Source of the DNA: a virus
Length of the DNA: 50,730 nt
Direction: 5' to 3' (one strand)
IMG/VR virus record: IMGVR_UViG_3300010885_060403
Coordinates: 1-50,730 of that record
The notes beneath the pieces were generated by a model. It was not told the DNA's origin. It ran no database searches and worked only from the letters and a program-made list of their open reading frames with translations. Numbering within the stretch: the first letter of the stretch is position 1; every line of letters starts with the position of its first letter. Below, piece after piece: positions 2,116 through 41,948 of the stretch. The position numbers and the translations under genes are program-made.

Positions 2116-3789
2116 ATGGCAGCAACTACAACAACAATAACATTTGATTTTACAGCAACCAACCCATTAAAAAGATGGCAGTTTAATCCAAATGGTGCAA
2201 CATCTTATTTGTTGAGTGATACCACAATTAGCGGACCCACGGCTCAAACAGTTGCTGATGGAAGTCTTTTTAAAATATCCAGATCCGACGATCAATATAA
2301 CGGATTAACAGAGGGGACCGGAGCATCTATTTCTCTTGATGCGTCCATGAATGAGCTATTGGGTATATCAAGTACCAATAAGTTTGTTAAACGTCTAATA
2401 ATAGTTCCGCATTTTAAAGTGTTTAATAACTGGTCAGGCATGAACACATCAGCTTTACAGACTATAGGAGAAGCGGGTAGATGGATTAATACAAACCAGC
2501 CCCTGTCAGTAATGTTTAAATCTAAGATCCGATTTATAAACAGATCTGATGGATATTATATGCAATCCTGGCCTGCTAATGCTGGTGGATTTAATATTAG
2601 TAATACTGGTTGGTTTAATTTTGATACTGATATTAATCTTCTTTCTGTTGGATATGACACAGTTGAATCCTATGCAGCAAATACTGAGGCATTAGATTAT
2701 ATTGGAACCGGAGCTTCAAATGCTCTCTTCATAGACAATTTTAACAACTATAGATATAACTCAGATACTAGAATATTTAATACCGGAAAAATTAGTAACA
2801 GTGTAACTTCCAGTAGTGTTGCAACTCAGTATAAGGTTTTAAATTTTTCCCCAAATAATTTTGATTATGCAACTCTTGAAGCAAGTAGCGATTTCGGTGA
2901 ATATTGGGCATATCCTCTATTGACAACAGATAAAGTTAGATTTGAAATACCATTTGCTATAACAATTCCTCAATTCCAACACGTTTGGACAGATTGGCCA
3001 TGGAATAAATCAAGAAAAACCCTAACCACCGATTTAGTATTTACAAAGATTGAATTCAAAGTGATGTATGATACTGTATCTGAATACAAGACAAAATTCT
3101 GGGCATCATCAGATCCAACCGTAGGTAATAATTACTACTACCAGGAAGTATGGTTAGATCCGGAAAAAACAAAACCTCTTCCTGATGGATATCTAGCAAG
3201 TAATGGTAAATATTTTATTACAGGGGATGGAATTATACAGGGAAGAAGAGTATGTCAAGCTAAGATTGCTTTAACAGCATCAGATAATGGAACAGTATCA
3301 TCAAGCTATCCAACAGCAGTAAGCGGATATGGAGATTACAATTTTAATCCTGATGTTTCTTATATCACATTAGATGCAGCTCCTAATTATCCGATAGTTT
3401 TTGACAGCTGGGAAGCTACAGATTTTGATGGCAACGTCACAACCGTAAGTTACGATTCAACAATTAATGTTTATAATGGATTATATGAAAGTATAAAACC
3501 GATATTCACAGCCAGCACACCTAGTCCAACCCCAGCACCTTCCGGCGATTATGATTATTACTATGCTGATGTCTTCTCTTGTAGCGATTGCAGTGCTTCA
3601 ACTGATACCATAGTGGTAGCATTCGCTGCAGGATCATCAGTAACACTCAACAGATTCTACGTAGCACTCGGAGGTCCTGATGGATTTGCATATAGAATCA
3701 ATAGCTCAACATCAAGTTCTGGAACTGTTTACATTTTAACAACAGCATACGGATCATTCTCTAACTGTAATGTGGCATGTTTTGTTTAA
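2116..3789 (+). CDS. Putative virion/tail-fibre protein, 557 aa
   Basis: It starts eleven bases after the previous stop with MAATTTTITFDF. The sequence is rich in aromatics, Asn, Ser and Thr, typical of beta-structured adhesins. A Pro-rich hinge (TPSPTPAPSG, near residue 473) separates the body from a ~80-residue C-terminal domain with four Cys (SCSDCS and NCNVACF). That terminal domain looks like an independent module. No family is recognised. It closes the fibre cluster and is followed by the tRNA block. Receptor contact is plausible but unproven. Confidence 0.55.
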   Translation: MAATTTTITFDFTATNPLKRWQFNPNGATSYLLSDTTISGPTAQTVADGSLFKISRSDDQYNGLTEGTGASISLDASMNELLGISSTNKFVKRLIIVPHFKVFNNWSGMNTSALQTIGEAGRWINTNQPLSVMFKSKIRFINRSDGYYMQSWPANAGGFNISNTGWFNFDTDINLLSVGYDTVESYAANTEALDYIGTGASNALFIDNFNNYRYNSDTRIFNTGKISNSVTSSSVATQYKVLNFSPNNFDYATLEASSDFGEYWAYPLLTTDKVRFEIPFAITIPQFQHVWTDWPWNKSRKTLTTDLVFTKIEFKVMYDTVSEYKTKFWASSDPTVGNNYYYQEVWLDPEKTKPLPDGYLASNGKYFITGDGIIQGRRVCQAKIALTASDNGTVSSSYPTAVSGYGDYNFNPDVSYITLDAAPNYPIVFDSWEATDFDGNVTTVSYDSTINVYNGLYESIKPIFTASTPSPTPAPSGDYDYYYADVFSCSDCSASTDTIVVAFAAGSSVTLNRFYVALGGPDGFAYRINSSTSSSGTVYILTTAYGSFSNCNVACFV

Positions 3790-3808: not shown

Positions 3809-3816
3809 TATATTTG
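3809..3816 (+). promoter_or_regulatory. TAnnTTTG-like promoter box before leader ORF
   Basis: TATATTTG matches the Bacteroidetes -7 consensus TAnnTTTG and lies 38 bases before the leader ORF. No clear -33 element was found at the usual spacing, so support is weak. Confidence 0.3.
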
Positions 3817-3853: not shown

Positions 3854-3946
3854 ATGAACAAAAGCTTCAACATATTGCCGCTTCACACTACGTCATCATC
3901 TTCATCAAGAAGACCGATAACTCATGTGGAGATCCTAGGTAATTAG
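3854..3946 (+). CDS. Serine-rich 30-aa leader peptide before tRNA array
   Basis: A 30-codon ORF reads MNKSFNILPLHTT, then five Ser, then RRPITHVEILGN. Four of the five serine codons (3893-3907) are UCA. The next gene is tRNA-Ser with anticodon UGA, which reads UCA. A terminator follows 27 bases after the stop, and bases near the ORF end can pair with the terminator's 5' arm. This is the arrangement of amino-acid attenuators such as trp and his leaders. Translation is inferred; the peptide family is not recognised. Confidence 0.55.
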   Translation: MNKSFNILPLHTTSSSSSRRPITHVEILGN

Positions 3947-3985
3947 AAGAAACTTAAACTCATTTTCGTCTAAAAAGCCTAGATC
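3931..3985 (+). promoter_or_regulatory. Candidate antiterminator pairing
   Basis: GATCCTAGG at 3931-3939 can pair with CCTAGATC at 3978-3985 (eight pairs, one bulged C). TTAG at 3943-3946 can add four pairs with CTAA at 3970-3973. The downstream arm is also the 5' arm of the terminator, so the two folds exclude each other. A ribosome at the leader stop codon would cover the upstream arm; one held at the Ser codons would leave it free. Confidence 0.5.
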
Positions 3986-4009
3986 CCTAATAAGATTTAG
4001 GCTTTTTTT
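3973..4009 (+). terminator. Rho-independent terminator (attenuator)
   Basis: AAAAGCCTAGATC at 3973-3985 pairs with GATTTAGGCTTTT at 3994-4006 (13 pairs, one G-U), with an eight-base loop and a T-tract to 4009. It sits between the leader ORF and the first tRNA. Confidence 0.75.
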
Positions 4010-4044
4010 ATTGGGTTCTTTGACATGGTGGGAAATTAAAAATT

Positions 4045-4132
4045 GGAGAGATGGCAGAGTTGGTCGATTGCGTCAGTCTTGAAAACTGAAGAACGGGAAA
4101 CTGTTCCGTGGGTTCGAATCCTACTCTCTCCG
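4045..4132 (+). tRNA. tRNA-Ser(TGA)
   Basis: Acceptor GGAGAGA/TCTCTCC, anticodon arm CAGT-CTTGAAA-ACTG with anticodon TGA at 4080-4082, long variable arm and canonical T-loop TTCGAAT. Discriminator G is followed by CA; CCA is not fully encoded. It decodes UCA, the main serine codon of the upstream leader ORF. Confidence 0.93.
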
Positions 4133-4137
4133 CATAT

Positions 4138-4258
4138 GCCGGTGTGGCGGAATGAATAATTTCAAATTCGAATAGAGATTATTAGACGTCCCGTAATTCT
4201 AGAAAAGGTGGTGTATCCGAAATGGACATCGTGAAGGTAGTCAACCCTTCCACCGGCA
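4138..4258 (+). ncRNA. Aberrant tRNA-Leu-like RNA with D-loop insertion
   Basis: The ends are those of a bacterial tRNA-Leu: GCCGGTG-TGGCGGAAT at the 5' end and CACCGGC-ACC at the 3' end, forming a perfect acceptor stem (4138-4144/4251-4257). The interior is not canonical. A nine-pair hairpin (AATAATTTC/GAGATTATT) interrupts the D-loop, the T-arm-like stem GAAGG/CCTTC carries an eight-base TAGTCAAC loop, and no clear anticodon arm is visible. It could be a tRNA-derived regulatory or decoy RNA, or a decaying tRNA gene. Confidence 0.5.
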
Positions 4259-4273
4259 CCTTATTTAAGATAT

Positions 4274-4359
4274 TCTAAGAACAGCGTCGAGCCGGATTTT
4301 GCGTCGGTCTTAGATTAGATTTGTCCAATGGGAGAGCCGGCCGCGACCCCGGACAAATC
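4274..4359 (+). ncRNA. Double-hairpin structured RNA between tRNAs
   Basis: Two strong hairpins stand side by side: TCTAAGA/TCTTAGA (4274-4280/4308-4314) and the nine-pair GATTTGTCC/GGACAAATC (4318-4326/4351-4359). Both loops contain GAGCCGG. There is no tRNA fold and no ORF. It may be a processing spacer or a stable small RNA like the species 1 and 2 RNAs of the T4 tRNA cluster. Confidence 0.4.
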
Positions 4360-4367
4360 ACTATATT

Positions 4368-4441
4368 GGTTCTGTAGCTCAGCTGGATAGAGCGCCACCC
4401 TTCTAAGGTGGATGTCATTGGTTCGAATCCAATCGGGATCA
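4368..4441 (+). tRNA. tRNA-Arg(TCT)
   Basis: Acceptor GGTTCTG/CGGGATC with three G-U pairs, D-arm GCTC/GAGC, anticodon arm CCACC-CTTCTAA-GGTGG with anticodon TCT, and T-loop TTCGAAT. Reads AGA, a codon common in this AT-rich genome. Confidence 0.93.
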
Positions 4442-4452
4442 CAATTAAGGTT

Positions 4453-4541
4453 GATTGGGGAATGATTATATCTATAGCTCGAGAGTGAATGCCGGCTGAT
4501 ATAATCGGAGTTTAGAGGTATTCACCCCAGTAATGCCAATC
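4453..4541 (+). ncRNA. Structured RNA with H-type pseudoknot
   Basis: Outer stem GATTGG/CCAATC (4453-4458/4536-4541) encloses two crossing nine-pair helices: GATTATATC/GATATAATC (4464-4472/4498-4506) and GTGAATGCC/GGTATTCAC (4485-4493/4517-4525, one G-U). Loops of 12, 4 and 10 bases give ideal H-type pseudoknot geometry. It lies between tRNA-Arg and tRNA-His and is not a tRNA. Function unknown. Confidence 0.5.
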
Positions 4542-4545
4542 GTAA

Positions 4546-4577
4546 AAGAGATCGTCCACTGAACCATCTTTCTCTTT
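4546..4577 (+). other. Hairpin between structured RNA and tRNA-His
   Basis: AAGAGA and TCTCTT arms flank a loop of about 20 bases upstream of tRNA-His. There is no long T-tract, so it is more likely an RNA processing site than a terminator. Confidence 0.35.
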
Positions 4578-4588
4578 CCTTAAAATAT

Positions 4589-4663
4589 GTTGGATGTAGC
4601 CTAATGGTAGGGCAAATGCTTGTGGCGCATTACGCGTGGGTTCGATCCCCATCATTCAACCCA
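4589..4663 (+). tRNA. tRNA-His(GTG) with encoded CCA
   Basis: It shows the extra 5' G (4589) opposite discriminator C (4660) that marks tRNA-His. Acceptor TTGGATG/CATTCAA, anticodon arm AATGC-TTGTGGC-GCATT with anticodon GTG, T-loop TTCGATC, and CCA encoded at 4661-4663. Confidence 0.93.
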
Positions 4664-4667
4664 ATAT

Positions 4668-4743
4668 CTAGATGTAGAGGAGCCAAGTTTATCTCGCTGC
4701 TTTTGGAAAGCAGAGCACGCTGGGGCGGAGCCAGCTATCTAGA
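4668..4743 (+). tRNA. tRNA-Pro(TGG)-like cloverleaf with non-canonical elbow
   Basis: All four arms have tRNA spacing: acceptor CTAGATG/TATCTAG, D-stem GAGG/TCTC, anticodon arm CTGCT-TTTGGAA-AGCAG (anticodon TGG at 4704-4706), five-base variable region, and T-stem GCTGG/CCAGC. The T-loop is GGCGGAG in place of TTCGANN, and the D-loop AGCCAAGTTTA lacks the conserved GG. Both halves of the D-loop/T-loop contact are therefore lost together. It may be an unusual working tRNA or a tRNA mimic; scanners would score it low. Confidence 0.5.
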
Positions 4744-4745
4744 CA

Positions 4746-4811: not shown

Positions 4812-4885
4812 GGACTTGTAACTCAGTTGGTTAGAGTGCAACACTCATAATGTTGAAGCCCCTGGTTCGAGCCCAGGCTGGTCCA
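4812..4885 (+). tRNA. tRNA-Met(CAT)
   Basis: Acceptor GGACTTG/CTGGTCC with one T-T mismatch, D-loop AGTTGGTTA, anticodon arm CAACA-CTCATAA-TGTTG with anticodon CAT, and T-loop TTCGAGC. The acceptor start and D-arm fit an elongator tRNA-Met; a tRNA-Ile modified at C34 cannot be excluded from sequence alone. Confidence 0.88.
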
Positions 4886-4889
4886 CAAA

Positions 4890-4958
4890 TAGTGTCTTGG
4901 TACGCTCTGAAGAAATTCAACGACAAGGTCTCGGTAAGCGAAACGCGTTCGATCTTAC
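4890..4958 (+). ncRNA. Structured spacer RNA before tRNA-Leu
   Basis: Contains the hairpins CTTG/CAAG (4896-4899/4924-4927) with TGAA-GAAA-TTCA inside it, and GTAAG-CGAA/TTCG-AT-CTTAC (4934-4958). No ORF or canonical tRNA is seen. Confidence 0.3.
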
Positions 4959-4964
4959 TCAAAT

Positions 4965-5046
4965 GGCCCCCTGTTGTAATTGGTAGCCAAGTCAGATTTA
5001 GGATCTGATGTCGCGAGACGTGTCGGTTCGAGTCCGACGGGGGTCA
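4965..5046 (+). tRNA. tRNA-Leu(TAG)
   Basis: Acceptor GGCCCCC/GGGGGTC, anticodon arm TCAGA-TTTAGGA-TCTGA with anticodon TAG, a type II variable arm (GTC-GCGA-GAC) and canonical T-loop TTCGAGT. The D-loop keeps its conserved GG. Confidence 0.9.
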
Positions 5047-5059
5047 CAACAAGATTATA

Positions 5060-5689
5060 CTAGATTAGGGATCTTTTAACTATAGGTTTGGTATATCTAG
5101 TTTTAAAAATTTCAGCCAATTCACTGTGTCCAATTTCTCCATAATGTCCATCATCAACCGCACCTTCAGATTCCTCTGAAATTGTTAGACATCTTATAAA
5201 TTCACATTTTGTTATAGCTCCTCCAAAAGGTGTCCAATGAATTATGTCATTATTAGGAAGAGCCTTGTTTATTAATCTTATCCAAGAATCAACTTCGTGT
5301 GCAAATTTATAGGAAGACCTATTCAACATTATTTCGTCTATTGATTGCTTAGATAAATGATCGAAAAGAGAAAGATCGTAATCATCACCAGGTCTTAGAC
5401 TAACCCAGGTATCGTTTTTTGTCGCCAGTCTAAATCTAACTGGATTTGACCATCCAATTATAACAAAGTCATTTTCTTTTATTTCCCAGATATTTTTACA
5501 GATGTTTTCGAAAATAGCATAATTATCCGAACCTCCTTCCCCTATATTCTTTTTAATGAAACTAAGATCCCTAGATAGAATATCGGAAAAGTTAAGAGGT
5601 TTATAACCCTTCCATTCTATGTATCTTTTTGCCCAGTGCCCAAATCCTTCTGTGTAGGAATCCCCAAATGTCCAAAGTGTGTTCGCCAT
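5060..5689 (-). CDS. SGNH/GDSL-type hydrolase
   Basis: About 209 aa. The start chosen is MANTLWTFGDS (ATG at 5689); the frame continues upstream into the divergent promoter region, so a longer form is unlikely. The block I motif FGDSYTEGFG carries the Ser nucleophile (residue 11). NIGEGGSDNYA resembles the Gly block, and DDGHYGEIGHSEL near the C-terminus supplies the Asp-x-x-His pair. SGNH enzymes cleave ester bonds, often on acetylated glycans. It is divergent from a dioxygenase gene and near glycosyltransferase-like genes, which suggests glycan or surface modification. Substrate unknown. Confidence 0.75.
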   Translation of the reverse strand: MANTLWTFGDSYTEGFGHWAKRYIEWKGYKPLNFSDILSRDLSFIKKNIGEGGSDNYAIFENICKNIWEIKENDFVIIGWSNPVRFRLATKNDTWVSLRPGDDYDLSLFDHLSKQSIDEIMLNRSSYKFAHEVDSWIRLINKALPNNDIIHWTPFGGAITKCEFIRCLTISEESEGAVDDGHYGEIGHSELAEIFKTRYTKPIVKRSLI

Positions 5690-5759
5690 ATTGATAATAT
5701 ATACTATAGAAGTTAAAACTAAAATATTCCAACTATCATATATAAAATAAAACCCCCGC

Positions 5760-6536
5760 ATGTTTAAATATCTTACAAGGGAGGAAGTTCAACAGCTTTC
5801 TTTCGATTGGAAATATAAAGGATATTCCGTAATAGATCTAATCACATCAGAAGAGGCTGATTTAATATCAGAAGATCTTGATAATCTAAGAAAAAGAAGA
5901 AATTCGGTAGACGATAAGTATGGGGAGTATGATCCTTATATCCATCCTCATAAAGAATCAGAGATGGTTGAAAAAATTCTTGTACACCCTAAGATAGTGG
6001 AAGCCATGGAATTTATAATAAATTCTGAGATTCAAGGAATACAAACATGGGCATATTTTAAACCCCCAGGAGAACTTGGTAGAGATGCACATCAAGATGC
6101 TTTCTATGCTCAAACGCAATGGAATAAGACTGCTAATGTTAGTATATCACTGGACGATACTGATGAGTCAAATGGAGGTATTTGGTTTTACGAGGCTTCT
6201 CATTTACTTCCAATTCTACCTATAGGGATAGACGAGGAGAGAGCTAAGCTTAATCCTATTAGATGGAGAAATGAGAGAGGTAAGGCATGTGTTATGCCTG
6301 AAGGACATAATTTTACTAGGATAACCCCATCCATCAAAAAGGGACAAGCAGTTTTTCTGCATTCACATATAGTCCACGGATCTAATGAGAATAAAAGTGA
6401 TCGTTTCAGAAGATCTATCCTGAGCGGATATACAGGCAAAGGATCTCCATTCAGAAGCGGAGAACATATGAAAAGGGAACCAATTGACATTTATGAACTA
6501 AAATTAAAATACTGGGAGGTAAAAAAACTCCAATAG
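5760..6536 (+). CDS. Phytanoyl-CoA dioxygenase (PhyH)-family Fe(II)/2-oxoglutarate oxygenase
   Basis: 258 aa, near full length for the family. The iron-binding triad is visible: HQD (His111, Asp113) and HSHIVHG (probably His206). A following Arg (RFRRS, ~217-218) would bind 2-oxoglutarate. A beta-barrel core precedes it (ANVSISLDDTDESNGGIWFYEASH). The enzyme hydroxylates or otherwise oxidises a small molecule, sugar or lipid; the substrate cannot be read from sequence. It starts a run of plus-strand genes with a glycosyltransferase-like protein and a methyltransferase, so a joint modification pathway is plausible. Confidence 0.82.
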   Translation: MFKYLTREEVQQLSFDWKYKGYSVIDLITSEEADLISEDLDNLRKRRNSVDDKYGEYDPYIHPHKESEMVEKILVHPKIVEAMEFIINSEIQGIQTWAYFKPPGELGRDAHQDAFYAQTQWNKTANVSISLDDTDESNGGIWFYEASHLLPILPIGIDEERAKLNPIRWRNERGKACVMPEGHNFTRITPSIKKGQAVFLHSHIVHGSNENKSDRFRRSILSGYTGKGSPFRSGEHMKREPIDIYELKLKYWEVKKLQ

Positions 6537-41324: not shown

Positions 41325-41948
41325 ATGGCAAAAAGCATTCAAGACTTAGCAGAAAAATTTTTAGAAACAACTTTAGAGAAAGATTTTAAATATCTCTATG
41401 ATCGAATTAAGCCTGGTTTATTAAATCATTGTAAATCTATTCTTATAGACGAAGAAATTGCTCAGGATGCAGTTTCAAAAACATTTGAAAAGATTTGGGT
41501 AAAGGTTGCTCAGTATGATCCAGCAAGGGGGAATTTTTCGACTTGGGCTTATAACATAGCTAGAAATGAATCCCTTCTTATAAAAAAGAATTCCAAAAAA
41601 TTTACTCCTTTGGTTTATGAATCAGTTGAACTGGAGGGGAGAGATTATGACGAATTCATTCCACTGTCAGACATTACGCCTGAAAGTATTTTTTCAGAGC
41701 CTGAATGGGAAATAAATAATAAAGAAGGTGGATTCGATGATTTATATGAAGTTGTATTGGAAAAGATGGAGCATCTACCAGCAATTTATAAAGATATCTT
41801 AATGGACAGAGAAATTCACAAAATGAAGTATCAGGAAATTGCTGATAAATATAGTATGAAAAAAAGAGCAATAGCTACAAGGATCAGAAGAGCAAGAATT
41901 AAGATAAGAGAAATGTTCCCGGGTATTAAATTAAATTTTATTGACTAA
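41325..41948 (+). CDS. Sigma-70-family (ECF-like) RNA polymerase sigma factor
   Basis: 207 aa. Region 2: IDEEIAQDAVSKTFEKIWVKVAQYDPARGNFSTWAYNIARN, with the usual W-x-Y-x-IARN end. Region 4: LPAIYKDILMDREIHKMKYQEIADKYSMKKRAIATRIRRARIKIREM, a helix-turn-helix. Regions 1 and 3 are absent, as in ECF sigmas. T4 uses the small sigma gp55 for late transcription, so this protein is a good candidate to read the GATATATAA motif. That link is inference. Confidence 0.88.
   Translation: MAKSIQDLAEKFLETTLEKDFKYLYDRIKPGLLNHCKSILIDEEIAQDAVSKTFEKIWVKVAQYDPARGNFSTWAYNIARNESLLIKKNSKKFTPLVYESVELEGRDYDEFIPLSDITPESIFSEPEWEINNKEGGFDDLYEVVLEKMEHLPAIYKDILMDREIHKMKYQEIADKYSMKKRAIATRIRRARIKIREMFPGIKLNFID

Follow-up and report, generated by a model that had tools for sequence, protein, structure and literature searches.

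The leader in front of a phage tRNA array is very likely a ribosome-mediated transcription attenuator which ties expression of the array to the supply of the tRNAs that it encodes. We hold this view because an open reading frame, a match between its codons and the array, alternative hairpins in the appropriate positions, conservation and recurrence all point to it; the basis is sequence and statistics. Promoter use, translation, stalling, read-through, expression of the tRNAs, closure of the loop, the role of boxA and the trigger are inferred, and there are no transcript, footprint or reporter data. About 140 similar leaders (62 leader entries) were found in metagenomic phages, the Al-Shayeb huge phages and the Prevotella megaphage Lak-C1. 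It is probable that the phages of this class turn on their own tRNAs when those same tRNAs run short, the regulation being an inference.

The window, which is the whole stretch of 50,730 bases that was analysed, is an IMG/VR virus record encoding a T4-like set of structural and replication genes. A terminase and a tail-fibre/baseplate protein are among its products, as are RecA-like and tail-sheath-like proteins, the latter two recognised by eye. Similar terminases occur in named phages of many hosts, Tenacibaculum, Flavobacterium and Prevotella included. No GenBank phage matched the window in megablast. The leader and the array are composed as follows.

3809-3816, + strand: candidate promoter -7 element TATATTTG of the TAnnTTTG type (sequence and class-wide enrichment)
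3854-3946, + strand: leader peptide ORF MNKSFNILPLHTTSSSSSRRPITHVEILGN, 30 codons, ATG to TAG (kept in the relatives L002, L003, L069 and L095/L270)
3872-3919, + strand: sensor stretch, leader codons 7-22 (codons compared with the array tRNAs)
3893-3907, + strand: run of five Ser codons, four UCA and one UCU (sequence)
3931-3939, + strand: antiterminator 5' strand (segment 2) GATCCTAGG, overlapping the final leader codons (pairing and folding)
3972-4007, + strand: intrinsic terminator hairpin of 14 bp, with a T run to 4009 (folding; kept in relatives)
3978-3985, + strand: shared strand (segment 3) CCTAGATC, pairing with 3931-3939 or with the terminator 3' arm
4014-4026, + strand: boxA-like element GGTTCTTTGACAT, as in Bacteroidota 16S-23S spacers (0 expected by chance)
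4045-4133, + strand: tRNA-Ser(UGA) (tRNA call)
4368-4442, + strand: tRNA-Arg(UCU) (tRNA call)
4590-4663, + strand: tRNA-His(GUG) (tRNA call)
4668-4744, + strand: tRNA-Pro(UGG) (ARAGORN)
4812-4886, + strand: tRNA with anticodon CAU, called Met (tRNA call)
4965-5047, + strand: tRNA-Leu(UAG) (tRNA call)

We propose that transcription begins 5' of 3854 and that the leader would be translated by a ribosome. When the charged tRNAs for the sensor codons are plentiful the ribosome would reach the stop codon and cover 3931-3939, the terminator at 3972-4007 would form and the tRNA genes would be off. If any of the sensed tRNAs is scarce the ribosome would stall upstream, 3931-3939 would pair with 3978-3985 and the terminator would be blocked, and the polymerase would continue past the boxA-like site and transcribe the tRNA array. 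The phage tRNAs would replenish the supply, and the loop would be closed. The shortage itself might come from decay of host tRNAs, from anticodon nucleases or from the demand of the phage.

The leader and its alternative hairpins

The original prediction described a 30-codon ORF with five consecutive Ser codons, four of them UCA, and direct reading of leader codons 14-18 (TCA TCA TCT TCA TCA) gives exactly this; the first gene after the terminator does read UCA, as had been said. The postulated pairing of 3931-3939 with 3978-3985 is present as 8 bp with one bulged C. A strong terminator had been placed at 3973-4009. It exists, with -16.7 kcal/mol and z=-5.1 for the fold of 3972-3985 with 3994-4007, while its limits have to be redrawn: the stem occupies 3972-4007 and only the T run extends to 4009. 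The antiterminator segment 3922-3992 folds with -16.8 kcal/mol (z=-3.3), and with -16.8 against -16.7 kcal/mol the two forms are therefore balanced. The protector (1:2) pairing, which would make an untranslated leader terminate by default, is visible in the fold of the window; across the set it is found in 38 of 63 leaders, which is weak support (p=0.01). Taken together, the reading as an attenuator holds up, geometry included, in nearly all computational tests, namely the frame-specific codon match, the antiterminator at the stop codon, the terminator, conservation and recurrence.

Conservation in relatives had been suggested as a check. The relatives of the window (L002, L003, L069, L095 and further copies; L270 is the record behind L177) were obtained by tail-protein and pattern searches, and the leader peptide, both paired arms and the terminator are kept in four distinct relatives, L002, L003, L069 and L095/L270. 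One antiterminator pair varies between A-U, G-U and G-C among them and the terminator 3' arm follows; covariation at the antiterminator of this family alone is not significant (one pair, five sequences). A search for further contigs sharing the leader DNA of the family found only three, all already in the set, and tblastn with the leader peptide for named relatives gave nothing useful. The same architecture is found with other sequences in dozens of phages, and together with the conservation in four relatives this means that the leader of the window is not due to chance.

Leader codons and the tRNAs of the array

The sensor codons 7-22 are ATA TTG CCG CTT CAC ACT ACG TCA TCA TCT TCA TCA AGA AGA CCG ATA, and the array tRNAs that decode them are those for Ile2/Met, Pro, Leu, His, Ser and Arg. 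There are thus codons in the leader for essentially all array tRNAs (Ser, Arg AGA, His, Pro, Leu CUN, Ile AUA). The leader also has three Thr codons, some in the sensor stretch, despite an array without tRNA-Thr; the cognate tRNA is lost in the window and retained in relatives such as L003. The CAU tRNA at 4812-4886 is perhaps Ile2 reading AUA, an inference from a leader that has AUA and no internal AUG. Ahead of some other CAU tRNAs the leaders likewise carry AUA without an internal AUG, and other leaders have AUG only; leader content may be able to separate tRNA-Ile2 from elongator tRNA-Met.

In the relatives the codons shift with the array. L002, L069 and L095 have tRNA-Leu(UAA) in their arrays and TTA codons in their leaders, and L002 and L095 have tRNA-Ser(GCU) with AGT leader codons; L069 has an AGC codon without tRNA-Ser(GCU). 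Neither tRNA is present in the window or in L003, where the leader positions read TCA TCA and ACT. The second array in these relatives has a separate leader: MRNQNQYNYYQMPEQGNEGDYMVNDLG in L002, ahead of Asn, Met, Glu, Tyr, Gln, Asp; MVNQSTYNNCYQMSEQGNEMDYMRTDLV in L069, ahead of Cys, Asn, Glu, Tyr, Gln; and MKTQFTYNCNQMPEQGNKGDYMDTDLG in L270, ahead of Cys, Asn, Glu, Lys, Tyr, Gln. Among these second leaders Cys codons occur only with tRNA-Cys, and a Lys codon in the sensor stretch only with tRNA-Lys. The original prediction assigned control to shortage of the first tRNA, Ser(UGA), alone. This needs refinement, since the leader codons span the whole array and shift with it in relatives; the refined conclusion is that the leader senses the whole tRNA set and not only its first member, where regulation is inferred in the absence of expression data.

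For the class as a whole the match was expressed as the fraction of leader codons read by the leader's own array compared with permuted arrays, using decoding sets from standard wobble rules in which CAU was counted as AUG or AUA. With 39 entries the match is 0.516 against 0.353 permuted (z=10), with 62 entries 0.462 against 0.274 (z=15.2), and 42 strictly clustered leaders give z=11.8; in each case none of 20,000 permutations reached the observed value. The entries are not fully independent, some families being distantly related, and permutation among them is conservative if anything. The signal is confined to the frame of the ORF (z=16.3, against z=-0.9 in frames +1 and +2), and the 30-codon ORF of the window is kept in relatives; translation itself is inferred. 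Codon-box tests were significant for Arg (CGN/AGR, p=7e-4) and Ile (ATY/ATA, p=0.017) and not significant for Ser and Leu. Sensing at the codon level, beyond the identity of the amino acid, is therefore supported for the Arg and Ile boxes and not for those of Ser and Leu. The leaders that fit poorly are those of L017, L085 and the second array of L159. A chance ORF or an effect of composition is ruled out by the frame control, the permutations and the within-genome swaps.

One could imagine a general sensor of translation capacity in which any slowing of ribosomes induces the operon, and the match arises because both leader and array follow codons used rarely or read slowly by the host. As many as 96% of the array tRNAs have a codon in their own leader, against 72%, so that many kinds of shortage would trigger such a switch. 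The arrays of one genome have different leaders, however, each fitting its own array: in genomes with several arrays the own array is the best fit for 29 of 32 leaders, and in LR745206 the match is 0.37 against 0.10. A common genome-wide cause, composition included, cannot therefore explain the match, and we consider the general sensor unlikely.

The attenuator reading also demands a particular order within the leader. The codon match is high at codons ~4-21 (0.63-0.83 against about 0.43) and is gone in the last nine codons. It is at these last codons and the stop that pairing with the leader's own terminator 5' arm peaks (-8.2 against -4.4 kcal/mol, window averages). The best duplex per leader has a mean of -13.9 kcal/mol, compared with -7.9 kcal/mol for the terminator 5' arms of other leaders, and 52 of the 63 leaders reach -11 kcal/mol or below, compared with 15% when other leaders' arms are used. 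A background set of other terminators after short ORFs, n=11 only, has a median of -6.6 kcal/mol with 18% at or below -11. The codon sensor is 5' and the antiterminator 3', which is the layout demanded by attenuation.

Promoter, boxA and the occurrence of the class

TAnnTTTG, which we take to be the -7 consensus of Bacteroidota, is found 10-90 nt 5' of 33 of 63 leaders where 3.0 are expected from shuffles. This bears on a simpler reading of the window, that the terminator just ends the tail-fibre transcript, that the array has a promoter at or after 4010, and that the ORF is the decaying remnant of a gene. The terminator does lie between the tail gene (2116-3789) and the array, and TAnnTTTG is present in 4 of 43 terminator-to-tRNA gaps. 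The gap is however short, with a median of 38 nt, and the boxA-like element fills it; that of the window contains no TAnnTTTG, and the motif is instead concentrated in front of the leaders; moreover the frame-specific selection is not that of a decaying remnant. We regard this reading as very unlikely.

Most terminators of the class are followed by an element like the boxA of Bacteroidota rrn operons, although most loci were found through the boxA pattern itself. GTTCTTTGACAT is located ~70 nt before the 23S rRNA and past the spacer tRNAs in L307 and L311, two genomes of the class around a Prevotella MAG, and in sequence and position the phage element agrees with an rrn boxA site as in these rRNA operons; the further criterion of such a site, NusB-NusE binding with processive antitermination, is a biochemical one. 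The boxA-like element cannot override the attenuator terminator because it is 3' of it. We infer that it helps the polymerase to traverse the structured array, a function which is untested. Bacteroidetes have been predicted as hosts of the Lak phages and of the five genomes above 634 kb (PMC7162821). From this prediction and the rrn-type boxA, the phages that carry such leaders appear to be those of Bacteroidota.

To collect the class, viral contigs were searched for the combination of a T run and boxA, and a tRNA T-loop was then required. This gave 153 boxA-plus-tRNA sites, 118 of which have a leader ORF 12-48 nt 5' of a strong terminator, in 39 peptide families. The leader ORFs were picked on position and length and never on composition. 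A finder independent of boxA added Lak-C1, LR756500, LR745206, LR756502 and LR756504; since most loci were found via boxA, sampling is biased and the set gives no estimate of prevalence. ORF starts are uncertain for a few leaders, e.g., the second of L002, and some arrays end at contig ends. Examples are MKTILNILPSILRPSIRRS ahead of Ser, Arg, Pro, Ile, Met, Leu; MKNLFHTTTSSSTSTSSCDEDTRALLRDR ahead of Ser, Ser, Thr, Cys, His, Thr, Ser, Glu, Asp; MKAMILSLCLSLSLSLQKLGVVGVCKVIS ahead of Leu, Leu, Ser, Cys, Ser, Ser, Leu, Leu; MKTKKQQYKQYQPQYKTVMGVYSLFGT ahead of Tyr, Tyr, Gln (then Lys); MKAMILSLCLSLSLSL... ahead of Leu/Ser/Cys tRNAs; and, as the extreme case among the huge phages, MTTTQQIQQQQINQTD ahead of three tRNA-Gln.

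A short ORF with antiterminator and terminator is a geometry shared with attenuators in which the nascent peptide itself arrests the ribosome in response to a drug or metabolite, as in ermC or tnaC, and where codon identity is irrelevant. A switch of that kind is scarcely credible here, as the 39 peptide families have no common peptide motif and codon content tracks the array, down to the codon box for Arg and Ile.

In the huge phages LR745206, LR756502 and LR756504 (L282-L294) the many tRNAs are split by amino-acid group into several operons (Gln; Arg/Ser; Leu/Ser/Cys; Glu/Tyr; Lys/His/Phe). Each operon has a leader of its own, and duplicated tRNA genes are frequent in these operons. No attenuator was found in pT24, PAU, T4, KVP40 or crAss001, and PTm1 and MaF61 are without tRNAs. 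To see whether tRNA operons of hosts also use the switch, ~85,000 genomes were searched with the same pattern. Among 19 matches only one (L237) has a tRNA array after boxA; its upstream ORF did not resemble a matching leader, and this search gave no host example.

Relation to known control systems

The trp, his, thr, leu and ilv leaders of enterobacteria have the same parts: a short ORF rich in control codons, an antiterminator overlapping the end of the ORF, a shared strand, an intrinsic terminator and then the structural genes. The phage leaders meet four criteria of the trp/his type: a leader ORF under coding selection, control codons 5' of the antiterminator that correspond to the operon product, a terminator, and a mutually exclusive antiterminator at the ORF end. 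A rise in read-through at low cognate aminoacyl-tRNA would be expected of them as well. They do not meet the criterion of a classical target (genes for amino-acid biosynthesis or aminoacyl-tRNA synthetases), the targets being tRNA genes. They also differ in that one leader carries codons for many tRNAs, that the product is the sensed adaptor and not an amino acid, and that a boxA-like element follows the terminator. The switch works like the trp/his-type family yet controls a new kind of gene, with regulation being inferred.

In T-box riboswitches, too, antitermination of translation-related genes depends on tRNA charging, but direct sensing of uncharged tRNA by a T-box-like RNA, with the ORF incidental, can be practically discarded: no tool result favours it, T-boxes need no ORF whereas the codon signal is restricted to the ORF frame and requires translation, and the leaders have no T-box structure, Rfam giving no T-box even among matches as weak as E=5 or 10 and no other match near threshold (Thr_leader at E=1 is far below cut-off).

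The rrn boxA sites share GTTCTTTGACAT with the phage element, which is identical to that of the Bacteroidota 16S-23S spacer; the phage copy differs in being placed between the attenuator terminator and the tRNA array, its function there being inferred. Theta (HDV-like) ribozymes beside phage tRNAs (PMC10879173) are likewise cis RNA elements linked to phage tRNA genes, but they serve processing of tRNA ends and not leader-peptide attenuation. For phage tRNAs, a role in replacing host tRNAs that tRNA-targeting defences have destroyed has been proposed or demonstrated (PMC10264068, PMC11555353). These texts contain neither attenuation nor leader peptides, whereas the phage switch would give demand-dependent expression. 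It is a serious possibility, put forward here only tentatively, that large Bacteroidota phages split their tRNAs into operons with an attenuator each reading its own tRNA subset, that tRNA-cleaving defences or decay of host tRNAs trigger the matching operon, and that the phage would in this way sense and replace the tRNAs destroyed.

No report of attenuation of phage tRNA operons was found in the literature searched, most subscription papers being outside its scope, and Rfam and PHROGs hold no matching family. The type of mechanism is known; the target, the many-codon sensor, the self-matching design and the spread in phages appear to be new. The purpose of phage tRNAs and the way in which phages control them have been debated for decades. 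A leader which lists its own tRNAs gives direct evidence from evolution that what is regulated is the supply of just those tRNAs, and it favours use of tRNAs driven by demand or depletion over constant expression. The class makes the question of control testable with ordinary reporters, and the leaders are a record, readable for each phage, of which tRNAs matter together. Ribosome-mediated attenuation is extended from biosynthetic operons to tRNA genes and to sensing of many codons.

Some minor observations concern the array of the window and its surroundings. A stretch of about 126 nt at 4138-4263 is a conserved structured RNA, also found in L002, L003 and L270, which is closed by a stem of 7 bp (GCCGGTG/CACCGGC) and contains a T-arm-like hairpin. 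It is not called as a tRNA by ARAGORN or Rfam, and is perhaps a tRNA-like stable RNA inside the array, a putative analogue of the rnaC/rnaD species of T4. The intergenic stretches at ~4265-4362, 4443-4589 and 4887-4964 are conserved in L002 and L003 without tRNA calls and are possibly further small RNAs. In the window, 5047-5761 lacks the second array (Asn, Met, Glu, Tyr, Gln, Asp) as well as the leader of that array, both of which occur in L002, L003, L069 and L270; the tRNA-Thr of the first array is also missing, and tRNA-Leu is followed by a minus-strand gene. A tRNA-like sequence with a long extra arm (GAGTTAACTGTCC...CCTTAACTC) lies at approximately 11855-11980 in L003 and 5680-5800 in L002 and is not called by ARAGORN. 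L003 also has a tmRNA gene at 583-1007 with the tag ARQEIGASIINMAFANAPVALAA. The motif GATATATAA occurs 7 times in the window where 1.8 copies are expected, mostly directly 5' of genes (e.g., 3839, 20346, 37225 and 43736 on the plus strand and 10706, 15308 and 18088 on the minus strand), and is a possible phage promoter or initiation motif. The gene at 41325-41948 encodes a phage RNA polymerase sigma factor (PHROG 1740, E=3e-18).
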